A DNA stretch of 64,000 bases from Leifsonia aquatica H1aii (GTDB taxonomy: Bacteria > Actinomycetota > Actinomycetes > Actinomycetales > Microbacteriaceae), in assembly GCF_000633535.1 (NCBI RefSeq), contig NZ_AYMR01000002.1, positions 1 through 64,000 on the forward strand, given 5' to 3'. The translations under genes and the position numbers were made by a program. The notes below the pieces were generated by a model. That model saw nothing but the letters and a program-made list of their open reading frames with translations, was not told the origin of the DNA and did not search any database. Positions 12,428 through 20,152 of this stretch are shown piece after piece (positions within the stretch are counted from its first letter, which is position 1; every line of letters begins with the position of its first letter).

Positions 12428-13747
<1,320 letters not shown>

Positions 13748-13751
13748 ACCG

Positions 13752-15026
13752 GTGCGTTATCGTTTGGCGGTCGTCGCCGGCCGCCTCGCCCGCTGGCTGC
13801 TGCGCCTGCGGGGCGGGGGGTCGGCGGTGCCCGGCCGGGTCGCGCTCGCCATCGCACCGAAGTTCTTGGAGCGCGCCGTCAGCCGGCTGCCGCTCGGTGT
13901 CGTGTTCGTCTCCGGTTCCAACGGCAAGTCGACCACCACGAACATGCTCACGGCCATCCTGCGCGAGCACGGCCTCGACGTCTTCACCAACCCGTCGGGC
14001 GGCAACCTGCCGCAGGGGATCGCGTCCGCGCTCCTCGCCGACGTCCCGCTCGACGGCTACGTCCGCGGCGATGTCGGCGTCATCGAGGTGGACGAGGCCT
14101 ACGGCGTCGACCTGGCCACCCTCCTGAAGCCGCGCGCCTCCCTGTTGCTGAACGTGCAGATCGACCAGCTCAACCGGTTCTTCGAGCCGACGCGGGTCGT
14201 CGGGATGCTGCGGTCCATCGCCGAGACCTCCTCGGAGTTCGTCGTGGTGAACGCCGACGACGACAGCCTGGCGCGCGTGGGGGCGGACCTCGCGGCCGCC
14301 GGTCGCGACGTGTCGACGTTCGCCGTGGCACCGTCGATCATCGACGCCGCCCCGAACGGGCTGGCGAACGTGGAGGACCTCACCGGCGTGGCCGCCGGAG
14401 CCCTCCCGGTGCCCGCGGTCTTCGTCTCGGCGCTCGAACTGCAGAGCGCCCAGCTCACGATCGGCGGCGAGCACGTGCGCATCGGGCTGCCGGCGCGCGG
14501 CCTGCACTACGCGGTGGACGCCGCGGGCGCGACCGCCCTGGCGCGGCGCCTGCTCGGTGACCGGTTCCGCCCGACCGCCGTCGTCGCGGCGATGGCGTCG
14601 CTGCGCACCGTCTACGGCCGAGGGGAGACCCTGCGGGTCGGCGACGAGGACATCGAGATCATCATGATGAAGAATCCGCCGAGCCTCCAGCTCAACCTGG
14701 ACTACCTGGCGGAGTCGCCCGAGCAGGTCTTCGTCGCCGTCGACGAGGGCACGCCCGACCCGTCCTGGGTCTACGACATCGACCTCTCGAAGATCGGTCA
14801 CGTCGACATCGCCTCCGGCACCAAGGCGTGGCAGTTCGCGACCCGCTTCGCGTACGCGGGCATCGAGGTCGACCAGGTCGTCCCCGAGCTGAAGCCGGCT
14901 CTGACCGCCTTCCTCGCCCTGCCGAAGCCGTCGCGCGGCACCAAGACCATGATCGTCAACTACGAGCAGATGATGCTGATCCGCAAGCAGCTCGGATTCC
15001 TCGACCTGGAAGGCGGCGAACGGTGA
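13752..15026 (+). CDS. MurT-like Mur ligase (DUF1727), cysteine-free variant
   Basis: A Mur-ligase family protein of 424 residues. The ATP-binding loop SGSNGKSTTT lies at 54-63, followed by the central ligase domain (VIEVDEAYG, LLLNVQIDQLNRF). The C-terminal DUF1727 domain has MMKNPPS and DPSWVYDID, matching the KNPAG and SWLWD motifs of canonical MurT. Canonical MurT with GatD amidates the alpha-carboxyl of D-Glu in lipid II and usually carries a four-cysteine zinc ribbon. This protein contains no cysteine, so the ribbon is absent. The start is GTG at 13752, without a clear Shine-Dalgarno sequence. It overlaps the GatD-like gene as GTGA. The exact reaction is uncertain. Confidence 0.85.
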   Translation: MRYRLAVVAGRLARWLLRLRGGGSAVPGRVALAIAPKFLERAVSRLPLGVVFVSGSNGKSTTTNMLTAILREHGLDVFTNPSGGNLPQGIASALLADVPLDGYVRGDVGVIEVDEAYGVDLATLLKPRASLLLNVQIDQLNRFFEPTRVVGMLRSIAETSSEFVVVNADDDSLARVGADLAAAGRDVSTFAVAPSIIDAAPNGLANVEDLTGVAAGALPVPAVFVSALELQSAQLTIGGEHVRIGLPARGLHYAVDAAGATALARRLLGDRFRPTAVVAAMASLRTVYGRGETLRVGDEDIEIIMMKNPPSLQLNLDYLAESPEQVFVAVDEGTPDPSWVYDIDLSKIGHVDIASGTKAWQFATRFAYAGIEVDQVVPELKPALTAFLALPKPSRGTKTMIVNYEQMMLIRKQLGFLDLEGGER

Positions 15027-15739
15027 GCGTGCTGCGCATCCTGCACCTGTACCCGCGCGAGCTGGGGATCAACGGCGACGCGGGCAACGTGCTCGCCCTG
15101 GCGGAGCGCGCCCGGTGGCGGGGCATCGAAGTGGAGGTCGTGACGCACGCCCCGGGAGCCGAGCTGCCGCCGAGCGTGGACATCGTCCACATCGGCTCCG
15201 GCCCGCTCTCCGCCCAGCGTGTGGTGCTGGAGGACGTCCAGCGCATCGCCTCCCGGTTGCGCGACTGGCGCGACGCCGGGGTGCCGCTCCTCGCGGTCGC
15301 GGGAGGCTGGCAGCTGCTGGGCCGTGAGTTCGTGACTCCGGAGGGGGAGACGCTGACCGGCGCCGGGGTGTTCCCCAGCCGCGCCGTGCTGAGCCGGGCC
15401 CGTCACGTCGGCGAGATGGTCGTGCGCAGTCCCGAGACGGGCAGCCTGGCCGGCTTCGAGAACCACTCCGCCCGGACCGAGCTGGAGGGCGGCGAGCCGC
15501 TGGGCCGCGTGCTCAGCGGGATCGGCAACGACGGAGCGACCGAGGGCGTGACCGTCGGAGCGGCCATCGGCACCCACCTGCACGGCCCCGTGCTGCCGAT
15601 GAACCCGGTGCTCGCCGACCGGATGCTGGCGACCGCTCTGCGCGCCGAGCTGCCCCCGGTGCCGCAGACGGAGCGGGTCGACCGCTACGCGACCAACGCG
15701 CGCCGGGCGATCGCGAGCCGCCTCGGGGTGTCGCTGTAG
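15023..15739 (+). CDS. GatD-like class I amidotransferase lacking the catalytic cysteine
   Basis: A 238-residue homologue of GatD/CobQ-type glutaminases, which supply ammonia to MurT. The fold is recognisable from GDAGNVLAL near 18-26, the nucleophile-elbow region LLAVAGGWQLLG at 89-100, GFENH at 144-148 and THLHGPVLPMNP at 184-195. The catalytic histidine (187) is kept. The nucleophile position is Ala93 (GCG at 15299-15301), where canonical proteins have cysteine, and the protein has no cysteine at all. Glutamine hydrolysis by the usual mechanism is therefore not expected. The frame is intact and it is coupled to the MurT-like gene, so this looks like a maintained variant, not decay. Confidence 0.85.
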   Translation: MSVLRILHLYPRELGINGDAGNVLALAERARWRGIEVEVVTHAPGAELPPSVDIVHIGSGPLSAQRVVLEDVQRIASRLRDWRDAGVPLLAVAGGWQLLGREFVTPEGETLTGAGVFPSRAVLSRARHVGEMVVRSPETGSLAGFENHSARTELEGGEPLGRVLSGIGNDGATEGVTVGAAIGTHLHGPVLPMNPVLADRMLATALRAELPPVPQTERVDRYATNARRAIASRLGVSL

Positions 15740-15796: not shown

Positions 15797-16873
15797 TCAG
15801 CCGACGTAGACGCGCGGAACCCGCGCGGCGACGCCCGTGATCATCTCGTCCGCGATGGTCTCCGCCCAGTCCGCCCAGGTCTCCGCGGTGGCCTCCCCGT
15901 CGACGCCCGGGCCGAAGAGGATGGCCGGGTCACCCATGCGCACGCGGGCGGTGCCCGCGTCCACGAGCATCGAGTCGACGTCCACCGCGAGGACCGGGCA
16001 GCGCCGGCCGTCCAGCAGAACCGACGCCTTCGCGATGCCGAGCGTCGGGACGCCGTCGCCGTAGCCGATCGCGATCCGGACGTGCGTCGTGCCGTCCACA
16101 TGCACCTCGGTGACGGGAGCCTCCAGGCGCATGACGGGCTCGAGGCCGAGTTCTGCGCCGGTGGCATCGTCGAAGGGGGAGAAGCCGTAGGCGGCGATCC
16201 CGAAGCGGACGAGATCGAAACGAGCGTCGGGCATGCGCATCCCCGCCGAGCTGGCGGCGAGGTGCAGGATCTCGAAGCGGGCGCCGCGGGCCTCGGCCTC
16301 GGCGACGGCCTCGCGGAACTCGGCCAGTGCGCGTCGGTCCTCTTCCAGGGAGGCGTCCGCCAGGTGCGACCAGGCGGCGCGGACGCGCACGACGCCGCGC
16401 TCCTGCAGGGCCAGAGCGGCGTCGACCAGACCGGGCCAATCGGCGCGGGTGGCGCCGTTCCTGCTCAGTCCCGTGTCGACCTTGAGATGCACGACGGCGG
16501 GACGGTCCGCGCCGGCCGCGGCGATCGCGTCGAGCTGCCAGCGGGCGGAGATGCCGAGCTCGATGTCGTTCTCGATGGCGGCCTGCCACTCGGTGTCCTG
16601 ACCGTGCAGCCAGGCGAGCAGGGGAGCGGTGACACCGGCACGGCGCAGGACGAGTCCAGCAGGGACCTCGAGCACCGCGAGGGAGGTGGCACCCGCCTCC
16701 AGCCCGGCCTCGGCGATGGGGAGCAGGCCGTGCCCGTAGGCGTCCGCCTTCACGGCGAGCATGACCTCCGCAGGCGCGGCGATCGCGGCGAGATGGGCGA
16801 CGTTGCGCCGCAGGGCGGCGAGGTCGATGACGGCGCGCGGCAGCGGCTCGGCGATGGCGTCGACGATCGTCAT
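15797..16873 (-). CDS. Alanine-racemase-like subunit with PLP lysine but no catalytic tyrosine domain motifs
   Basis: Fold type III PLP racemase, 358 residues. The barrel is complete: PLP lysine 42 in AVKADAYGHG, HLKVDTGLSRNG mid-barrel, AWSHLADAS, HLAASSAGMRMPDARFD, and VRFGIAAYGFSP at its end. The C-terminal domain is altered. Where Alr has VSYGxTY with the catalytic tyrosine, the sequence runs directly from PVTEVHVDG to IAIGYGDG, and the MDQ motif reads VDS. The frame is continuous through this region and ends RVPRVYVG, as in Alr. The ATG at 16873 overlaps the stop of the preceding racemase-like gene by 4 bases. It probably acts with that protein; used alone it should lack the second catalytic base. 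Confidence 0.88.
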   Translation of the reverse strand: MTIVDAIAEPLPRAVIDLAALRRNVAHLAAIAAPAEVMLAVKADAYGHGLLPIAEAGLEAGATSLAVLEVPAGLVLRRAGVTAPLLAWLHGQDTEWQAAIENDIELGISARWQLDAIAAAGADRPAVVHLKVDTGLSRNGATRADWPGLVDAALALQERGVVRVRAAWSHLADASLEEDRRALAEFREAVAEAEARGARFEILHLAASSAGMRMPDARFDLVRFGIAAYGFSPFDDATGAELGLEPVMRLEAPVTEVHVDGTTHVRIAIGYGDGVPTLGIAKASVLLDGRRCPVLAVDVDSMLVDAGTARVRMGDPAILFGPGVDGEATAETWADWAETIADEMITGVAARVPRVYVG

Positions 16874-17583
16874 GCGCAGTGCACCCTCTCGATGCGCCGG
16901 CCCAGCCGGCTGGTGATGACGGGCGCGGCGACGCCGATCGCGTCGGCCCAGTCGAGTACGGTCGGCTCGCCGCGGGCCGGGTCGCCGAACAGGACCACAG
17001 GGTCGCCGGGGGAGGCTGCGCCGCCGCCGATGTCGACGACGAACTGATCCATGGCGATCCGCCCGGTCACCCGTCCACGGGTCGCTCCGACCTGCACGGG
17101 TGCCTTGTTGGATGCCACGCGGAGGATGCCGTCTGCGTAGCCGAGCGCCACGAGCACGAGCGTGGTCGGCTGCGCGGTGCGGTAGGTGTAGCCGTACGAG
17201 ACGCCGCGGTCGGCCTCCACGTGCTTGACGGCGATGATCTCGCCCCTCAGACGCATCGCGGGGGCGGTCGGCGTGGCCGGGTCGAGGCCGAAGAGCGCCG
17301 GCCCGAGCAGCGCACCGGAGCCTGGACCGGCCCCGCCGACGGTGACGCGGGTGTCGATGCCGTCATCCGCGAGCGCGGCGGCGTCTTCGATGCGGGACAC
17401 GACGAAACCGCCGACCCCCGCATCGGACAGCGCACGGGCCACGGGGATGAGCCCGTGGCCGTACGCGTCCGCGCGGAGATCGGCGGTGGAGTCCTGGAGG
17501 GAGGCGGCGAGAGCCGCGGCAGTGGATCGGACGACGGACAGGTCGATCGTGGCGCGCCTGCGCACGCCGTGCCCTGCGGTCAT
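16870..17583 (-). CDS. Short alanine-racemase-like subunit with catalytic tyrosine domain but no PLP lysine
   Basis: A 237-residue Alr homologue. The N-terminus starts like Alr (ATIDLSVVRS), but the PLP lysine position is Arg37 in LRADAYGHG. After about residue 95 roughly 120 barrel residues are missing, and the sequence jumps to ALFGLDP. The C-terminal domain is complete: VSYGYTY at 128-134 (Tyr130 as the expected catalytic base), GYADGILR at 148-155, SNK, and GRIAMDQ at 174-180. In Alr dimers each active site takes lysine from one chain and tyrosine from the other, so this protein complements the downstream subunit. It starts at ATG 17583, 36 bases after the DUF7455 gene. Confidence 0.86.
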   Translation of the reverse strand: MTAGHGVRRRATIDLSVVRSTAAALAASLQDSTADLRADAYGHGLIPVARALSDAGVGGFVVSRIEDAAALADDGIDTRVTVGGAGPGSGALLGPALFGLDPATPTAPAMRLRGEIIAVKHVEADRGVSYGYTYRTAQPTTLVLVALGYADGILRVASNKAPVQVGATRGRVTGRIAMDQFVVDIGGGAASPGDPVVLFGDPARGEPTVLDWADAIGVAAPVITSRLGRRIERVHCA

Positions 17584-17856: not shown

Positions 17857-18067
17857 GTGATGCTCCTTTCAGTCGCAACCGGTGAACTCGGTACGTCTAT
17901 AGAACCACGCTTGACCCCGAATCCGTCGCGCATTGCCTGCTATTTCGCTCAACGCGTAGCCTCCCGCGCGACGAGTGTCGGTGGCGGGGACGTTCCTCAG
18001 GGTTGTCTACGCTGGAAGGAGCAGTGCGCCCGCATCCTCCGCGCGCACCGGAACGCAAGGAGCACTC

Positions 18068-20152
<2,085 letters not shown>

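Follow-up and report, generated by a model that had tools for sequence, protein, structure and literature searches.

Textbooks present alanine racemase (Alr), an antibiotic target, as a symmetric dimer whose two identical chains form two equal sites. Unequal partners are known from the prozyme systems of trypanosomatids (AdoMetDC and deoxyhypusine synthase), in which a degenerate paralogue must join the catalytic subunit as its dimer partner. The serine racemase VanT, which has an Alr-type domain, is membrane-linked. In Alr, a fold-type III pyridoxal 5'-phosphate (PLP) enzyme (TIGR00492), each site takes its lysine from one subunit and its tyrosine from the other (PMC3485190, cited in excerpt here and below). 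According to the same excerpts, Lys39, Ser204, Arg136 and Arg219 contact PLP, Tyr265, Arg290 and Arg309 act in trans, and Tyr354 adjoins Tyr265' and sets the specificity for alanine; Lyr and Bar share the Alr fold, have Thr and Ala, respectively, at position 354 (Thr391/Ala393) and take larger cationic substrates, while VanT has Asn at this position (PMC3485190). Here we analyze a stretch of 64,000 nucleotides of Leifsonia aquatica H1aii (contig NZ_AYMR01000002.1, positions 1 to 64,000; hereafter the window), which contains two overlapping genes, A and B, that encode paralogues of Alr. The fold and the Lys/Tyr two-base layout across the dimer interface are common to Alr and A/B, but A and B each lack one half of it, which would leave a single site and a barrel-less partner. 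We consider it likely, with a probability of roughly 0.85, that the two proteins assemble, in the manner of Alr, into an obligate heterodimer whose single working site is composite. The prozymes are eukaryotic, belong to other enzymes and are mostly activating, whereas A would instead donate the catalytic base.

Gene A (16870..17583, 237 residues) is the upstream gene of the pair and encodes a barrel-less paralogue that would donate the tyrosine, whereas gene B (15797..16873, 358 residues) encodes the PLP- and lysine-bearing paralogue without the catalytic tyrosine loop. Both genes, and all residue positions given below for them, lie on the minus strand. The stop of A and the start of B share an ATGA (16870..16873, 4 bp), at which the two genes may be translationally coupled, and both frames are intact. 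Alignment with the complete Alr of the window genome (P0003, at G000:C7) places Lys42 of B, within AVKADAYGHG (16748..16750), at Lys39 of G. stearothermophilus Alr, the residue of the PLP Schiff base; the VSYGxTY loop is absent from B, with residues 258–259 (16097..16102) at the junction where the Tyr265 loop is missing, and VDS replaces MDQ. Conversely, A has Arg37 where the PLP lysine would be (17473..17475) and keeps GYADG, AMDQ and Tyr130 within VSYGYTY (17194..17196), the putative catalytic base donated in trans and the counterpart of Tyr265'. These motifs, the coordinates, the 4-base overlap and the intact frames had been read in a preliminary description of the locus, and they are confirmed in the sequence and, for the motifs, by alignment and codon check. 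The same description had A lacking about 120 barrel residues; the loss is real and its size is somewhat larger, with 9 of 135 barrel columns filled in the alignment. Thus Pfam Ala_racemase_N matches B over 1–220 of its 220 positions and A over just 1–77, while Ala_racemase_C (127 positions) matches A over 1–126 and B over just 35–127. From about residue 83 to the C-terminal domain A is almost without a barrel, and its phmmer alignment skips the residues of S. lavendulae Alr between 84 and 230.

The profile of the NCBIfam alr equivalog, TIGR00492, has a cut-off of 168 bits, with B above it (194.5) and A below (122.7); B thereby satisfies the NCBI profile for 'alanine racemase', though as one half of a heterodimer it would be inactive alone. 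The nearest named records to A are from Leifsonia sp. 71-9 (94%) and L. aquatica (92%). The best sequence matches of B are actinobacterial Alr (E 9.2e-65), and B is not closer to Bar (2.7e-25) or Lyr (3.9e-15), which keep both catalytic residues and have Ala or Thr at position 354, against Asp or Glu in B (PMC3485190). Both A and B fall far under the VanT profile cut-offs, and VanT, unlike either of them, is complete. Since the lysine occurs in B only and the tyrosine in A only, and Tyr354 is replaced, A/B is not an Alr in the strict sense; to judge from its residues it would work like Alr across two chains.

The distribution of the site residues was followed across the family Microbacteriaceae, in a sample of 299 genomes that was searched with A and likewise with B. 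The loci comprise 60 regions (one of them a placeholder) and 59 named loci, and yield 74 distinct A-type and 77 distinct B-type sequences in 25 coded genera; with Leifsonia (g1) and one named genome the genus labels amount to 27. Matches below 60 bits, identical sequences and one partial sequence at a contig edge (L158_+1) were dropped before counting, and three fused open reading frames (ORFs; L149, L160 and L036) were split into halves for alignment and excluded from the adjacency count. Pairs from the coded genera g2, g34, g16 and g85 stand outside the residue, adjacency, genus and substitution-rate counts. Pairs of the murT–parE family, the window pair included, are referred to as pair-1. 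Sequences were classed as A, B or full-length by Lys39 and Tyr265 (and, for the T2 class described below, also by Asp354), and these columns are not counted as evidence.

Outside the classing columns, the division between the two chains is sharp. Lys129, Arg136, His166, His200, Ser204 and Arg219 are all kept in 72 of 72 pair-1 B sequences; the first five are gaps in 59–65 of the 69 pair-1 A sequences, and Arg219 is matched by Arg in 4 of 74 A sequences. The converse holds for the partner-side residues, with Arg at Arg290' in 74/74 A against 6/77 B, Arg at Arg309' in 69/74 against 7/77, and Met at Met312' in 74/74 against 1/77. Met312, His166 and His200 presumably have roles in the Alr site. 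In the window, the residues concerned include B Arg138 (Arg136; 16460..16462) and B Arg223 (Arg219, at the PLP pyridine nitrogen; 16205..16207), both invariant in one alignment, and A Arg155 (Arg290', a putative entryway residue donated in trans; 17119..17121) and A Met178-Asp179 (Met312'-Asp313'; 17047..17052), all with codons checked. The Lys39 column itself contains Arg in 53 of 69 pair-1 A sequences, and Ala, Ser, Thr, Gly, Pro or, once, a gap in the remainder. In these alignments, B has thus retained the residues of its own site, and A those it would offer to its partner. Some A proteins (L142–L144, L162 and L164) still have a long barrel although the lysine and most of the PLP residues are gone, which shows that site loss and barrel loss are separable. 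In one region (G225, L136:2370-9532) two A–B pairs lie about 3.4 kb apart; in the second of these A proteins, 77 of 135 barrel columns are still filled, with Gly in place of Lys.

The two genes are inherited together. The architecture of the window recurs in 5/5 other sampled genomes of the genus and in seven named Leifsonia records, and B lies directly adjacent on the same strand for 73 of 73 judged A genes, in the order A–B in 68 and B–A in five. At least one of ParE, GatD, MurT and SigA flanks the pair in 48/48 pair-1 loci with flanks, which thus represent one syntenic site, although L080 and L146 among them may represent one genome. In comparisons of the window genes with five Leifsonia records, the ratio of nonsynonymous to synonymous substitution rates (dN/dS) is 0.14–0.30 for A and 0.08–0.19 for B. 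An assembly fault or chance was rejected because the architecture recurs in many genomes with dN/dS well below 1, and a local event in one strain was rejected by synteny. The preliminary description is to be corrected in that the pair is not a one-off: it is spread over the family, in the genus and in further genera, and a second split, that of the housekeeping alr, arose separately. A and B might still be pseudogenes of former alr copies that are being lost, as the complete alr elsewhere in the window genome and the loss of most of the A barrel could suggest. Intact frames, dN/dS of 0.08–0.30, reciprocal losses that are identical in 25 coded genera and 17 genomes in which no other Alr was found make such decay extremely improbable, and a pseudogene was rejected on conservation, dN/dS and recurrence in many genomes. 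At the level of sequence, A and B show a complementary, selected and co-inherited split.

The strongest evidence that A and B make one enzyme comes from a natural experiment, namely 17 genomes of four genera (g77, g50, g21 and g16) in which all alanine racemases found are asymmetric. Each of the five g77 genomes (99% complete) contains four Ala_racemase_C matches, arranged as two split pairs, and none of these genomes yielded a complete Alr; the second pair lies at the glmS–tsaE site in the reversed order B', A', with an ATGA junction like that of the window in L169, the one genome read. In g50, the Ala_racemase_C matches of all five genomes lie in a single ORF that encodes, in this order, a barrel with the lysine, a C-domain without the tyrosine and a second C-domain with V/ISYGGEY and MDQ, and again no complete Alr was found (5/5). 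This ORF continues in frame into TsaE, by Pfam in L196 (451-2430, G049; 660 residues from the first Met) and visibly in the similar L195, and the remaining three g50 ORFs are of similar length to these Alr–TsaE fusions. Extra PF01168 proteins without Ala_racemase_C also occur in g50 genomes (frames of 362–402 residues, e.g. G049:C1:1119628-1120299); they are taken not to be Alr and are perhaps, at a guess, of the D-threonine-aldolase or D-serine-dehydratase type. In g21, the barrel and both C-domains are in one ORF of 634–725 residues in 6/6 genomes, as read in the sequence for G020 and with the second C-domain below the cut-off in G161, G211 and G293; none of the six yielded a complete Alr. 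The single g16 genome (0.9 Mb, 98% complete) has the parE-linked pair only, with Asp354, and no housekeeping or complete Alr was found in it. If D-alanine is produced by racemization in g77, g50, g21 and g16, it would be by an asymmetric enzyme, and the split or fused forms at the glmS–tsaE site, which keep Tyr354, would be the alanine racemases of their hosts.

The same genera bear on two other accounts of the pair. A or B could form mixed dimers with the complete housekeeping Alr and tune it, for which speak the complete Alr of most pair genomes (see below) and the two full-length Alr that T2 genera carry in tandem; we regard this as improbable, because A and B are adjacent, co-inherited and in some genomes fused to each other, and because no complete Alr partner was found in g77, g50, g21 or g16. 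Alternatively, B could be a homodimeric PLP enzyme of other chemistry (a one-base epimerase, decarboxylase or aldolase), with A as its regulatory subunit. The second base is indeed absent from B, Met312 is retained in just one of 77 B sequences, and position 354 is acidic. There is little chance that this is correct, given that exactly the partner-site residues are kept in A, that the Tyr354-keeping split at the housekeeping alr site is one of the two pairs that make up all Alr found in g77, and that the fused form is the only Alr found in g50 and g21. Strict pairing, reciprocal residue retention, purifying selection, natural gene fusions and the genera that yielded no complete Alr thus support a heterodimer with a single site, as the preliminary description had proposed.

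Several observations weigh against this interpretation. The Pfam C-domain served for a census of 60 genomes from 59 genera, each at least 95% complete, that were classed by position and profile range. It comprises 18 genomes with a two-gene pair, two with a single-chain fusion, eight with a full-length tandem and 32 with a stand-alone complete Alr only. (In G015 and G030 only the A half passed the threshold, the B half being taken from a further search or from genus mates of G030; the A of G124 is truncated at the end of a contig, and a separate search supplied the second domain of the G020 fusion.) A complete Alr is present alongside the pair in 17 of the 18 pair genomes, and the window genome encodes two further Alr of full length, including one at the usual glmS–alr–tsaE site; the pair is therefore not needed there for D-alanine. 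According to the preliminary description, a complete alr elsewhere, combined with absence of the pair from relatives, would count against the heterodimer; the complete alr is found at G000:C7, and the pair is present in all five other genomes of the genus. Moreover, neither B nor T2 has conserved the putative own-side entryway columns Asp171/Glu172 (the first is Ser in 65/77 B), although the column match is uncertain. Finally, a divergent route to D-alanine is left open in the asymmetric genera: the D-amino-acid transaminase model TIGR01121 is above its cut-off in 0/5 and 0/13 genomes (the 13 including the window genome), but it passes in just 1 of 14 control genomes, so that this narrow model makes absence weak evidence, and fold-IV matches reach 65 bits (cut-off 277). 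The second full-length Alr of the window genome (G000:C26, L003:1045-2295, minus strand) and L189 in G033 have Lys, Tyr and MDM, with His both at the place of the carbamylated Lys129 and at 354, and these two form a separate branch.

Structures predicted with AlphaFold2 for the single chains have a mean predicted local distance difference test score (pLDDT) of 92.8 and a predicted template modelling score (pTM) of 0.89 for A, and values of 93.2 and 0.90 for B. The model of B superimposes on S. lavendulae Alr (1vfh) with a Z-score of 46.5 and a root mean square deviation of 1.5 Å over 352 residues and matches both the TIM barrel and the C-terminal beta domain of the Alr fold; that of A superimposes over 232 residues with values of 25.9 and 2.0 Å, most of the barrel being missing. 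A is thus predicted to fold confidently despite the barrel deletion. In the proposed heterodimer, the barrel of B would bind PLP via Lys42 and contribute the arginine for the substrate along with the remaining own-site residues. The C-terminal domain of A would pack over the mouth of this barrel and supply the opposing base, Tyr130, together with Arg155 and Met178. The mirror site would be dead, with no PLP barrel in A and no tyrosine in the C-domain of B. By this mechanism A and B would associate physically and have racemase activity.

The substrate of pair-1 was considered from position 354. Asp342 of B (15848..15850; alignment and codon check) occupies the place of Tyr354, and Asp or Glu is found there in 71/71 pair-1 B sequences with a letter in this column, and likewise in further sequences of g2, g34 and g16. 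In contrast, the splits at the alr site keep Tyr, in 5/5 of the B' sequences of the second g77 pair and 4/4 of the g50/g21 sequences. An acidic residue at this position fits a cationic side chain and therefore favors a diamino acid. The pair also has convergent neighbors resembling murT and gatD, genes of peptidoglycan amidation (13659..15739, plus strand); Pfam MurT_C, Mur_ligase_M and GATase_3 exceed their cut-offs, while the NCBIfam models MurT and GatD are the best matches and remain under their curated cut-offs. The wall peptide of Rhodoluna, a genus of Microbacteriaceae, contains D-Ala-D-Dab, where Dab is diaminobutyrate (excerpt of PMC4156110), and Clavibacter-type walls are of the B2-gamma diaminobutyrate type (excerpt of PMC5882085). 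Dab is also named for Agromyces walls (excerpt of PMC3855984). The acidic residue, the MurT/GatD-like neighbors and the Rhodoluna and Clavibacter-type walls lead us to propose, at about even odds, that pair-1 acts on L-2,4-diaminobutyrate or ornithine, both small diamino acids, and provides the D-isomer for the B-type interpeptide bridge, possibly with alanine activity in addition.

A heterodimer that racemizes alanine as a back-up alr, with Asp354 incidental, is a tenable but less favored assignment. B passes the alr equivalog cut-off (194.5 over 168), the g16 genome has pair-1 only, and seven of 77 complete Alr likewise have no Tyr354 (Tyr in 70, Trp in three, His in two, Arg and Gly in one each); the window genome's own Alr has Trp there. 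The variation at 354 and the g16 genome also tell against the diamino acid proposal, and g16, with Asp354 and no housekeeping Alr found, is a poor fit to a pure diamino-acid enzyme. Furthermore, 32 of the 60 census genomes have neither pair, fusion nor tandem, so a D-diamino acid role would not be universal in the family. Against alanine stand the acidic residue in all 71 pair-1 B sequences with a letter at this position, the Tyr kept by the alr-site splits and the assignment of position 354 to specificity (PMC3485190).

Pairs, tandems and fusions are distributed in a way that bears on the origin of the split. Single-chain forms occur in both orders, with A–B in one frame in G234 (L036, with an Ala-rich linker) and in G243 and G283 (L149, L160), and B–A in g21 and g50. 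T2 denotes the second full-length gene of a tandem at the glmS site: in Herbiconiux (L062:4269-6532) and in the tandems L110, L118 and L128, a complete second Alr, with Asp at 354, comes directly after the housekeeping alr. Among the eight census tandems, residue 354 of T2 was checked in four (G011, G026, G034 and G040). Pair and tandem occur together in 0/60 census genomes, a mutual exclusivity of pair-1 and tandem that is suggestive only, the relatives not being independent. T2 may be related to pair-1 as a homodimeric enzyme, or may represent an initial step towards heterodimerization. In the wider order (248 genomes, of which at least 18 belong to the family and 93 gave no match; threshold 1e-25), the short-frame matches of near-full cover among those listed are all from genus g85 of the same family.

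Trees were built with the trait columns removed. Pair-1 B and T2 make up one side of the tree with a support of 99.7. T2 fell among the B sequences in the first full-length tree, where B needed four changes; without eight long sequences B needed two changes when free, but a tree constrained to keep pair-1 B in one group had the better likelihood (p-AU 0.673 in the approximately unbiased, AU, test). This likelihood and the support for the B and T2 side lead us to read T2 as the sister of B. Of the complementary degeneration after duplication put forward in the preliminary description, the complementarity holds, whereas a sister relationship of A and B does not, B being nearest to T2 in the trees. 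The B' of g77 is placed inside the housekeeping alr clade, and a single origin of tyrosine loss, with pair-1 B and g77 B' in one clade, was rejected (p-AU 0.0036, on a quick tree and for a group named after a first tree had been inspected), which indicates from the trees that the tyrosine loop was lost at least twice. Within the housekeeping clade, g50 and g21 are placed by long branches and by their glmS–tsaE location, and no third origin is therefore counted. The A sequences form one group (84 in the Shimodaira-Hasegawa-like approximate likelihood ratio test) with long branches, and both a derivation of g77 A' from pair-1 A and one from a separate alr copy fit. The gene order alr–T2, which matches A–B, suggests that a copy of alr gave rise to A, and T2 to B. 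On balance, it is rather probable that symmetry was broken at least twice in Microbacteriaceae, at two loci and with opposite gene order, giving obligate one-site heterodimers, of which one is tuned to D-diamino acids for B-type peptidoglycan, while the other replaced the housekeeping Alr, is fused in relatives into single chains of one barrel and two C-domains and in one genus is joined to TsaE.

On its other side, the window pair has as divergent neighbor a type II topoisomerase B subunit, called parE (17975..20152, plus strand); it passes only a gyrB subfamily cut-off and may be gyrB or parE. Among the matches listed in open-licence PMC literature, neither a split or heterodimeric alanine racemase nor a gene for a diamino-acid racemase of Microbacteriaceae was found.

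If the proposed arrangement is correct, such pairs and fusions would be natural one-site forms of Alr with at least two origins, and hence a worked example of the passage from a homomer to an obligate heteromer, with full-length tandem, long-barrel, truncated and fused stages displayed by living relatives. About 126 of the 135 barrel residues of one subunit would then be dispensable. For the family itself, the pair is a candidate racemase for the D-diamino acids of B-type peptidoglycan.

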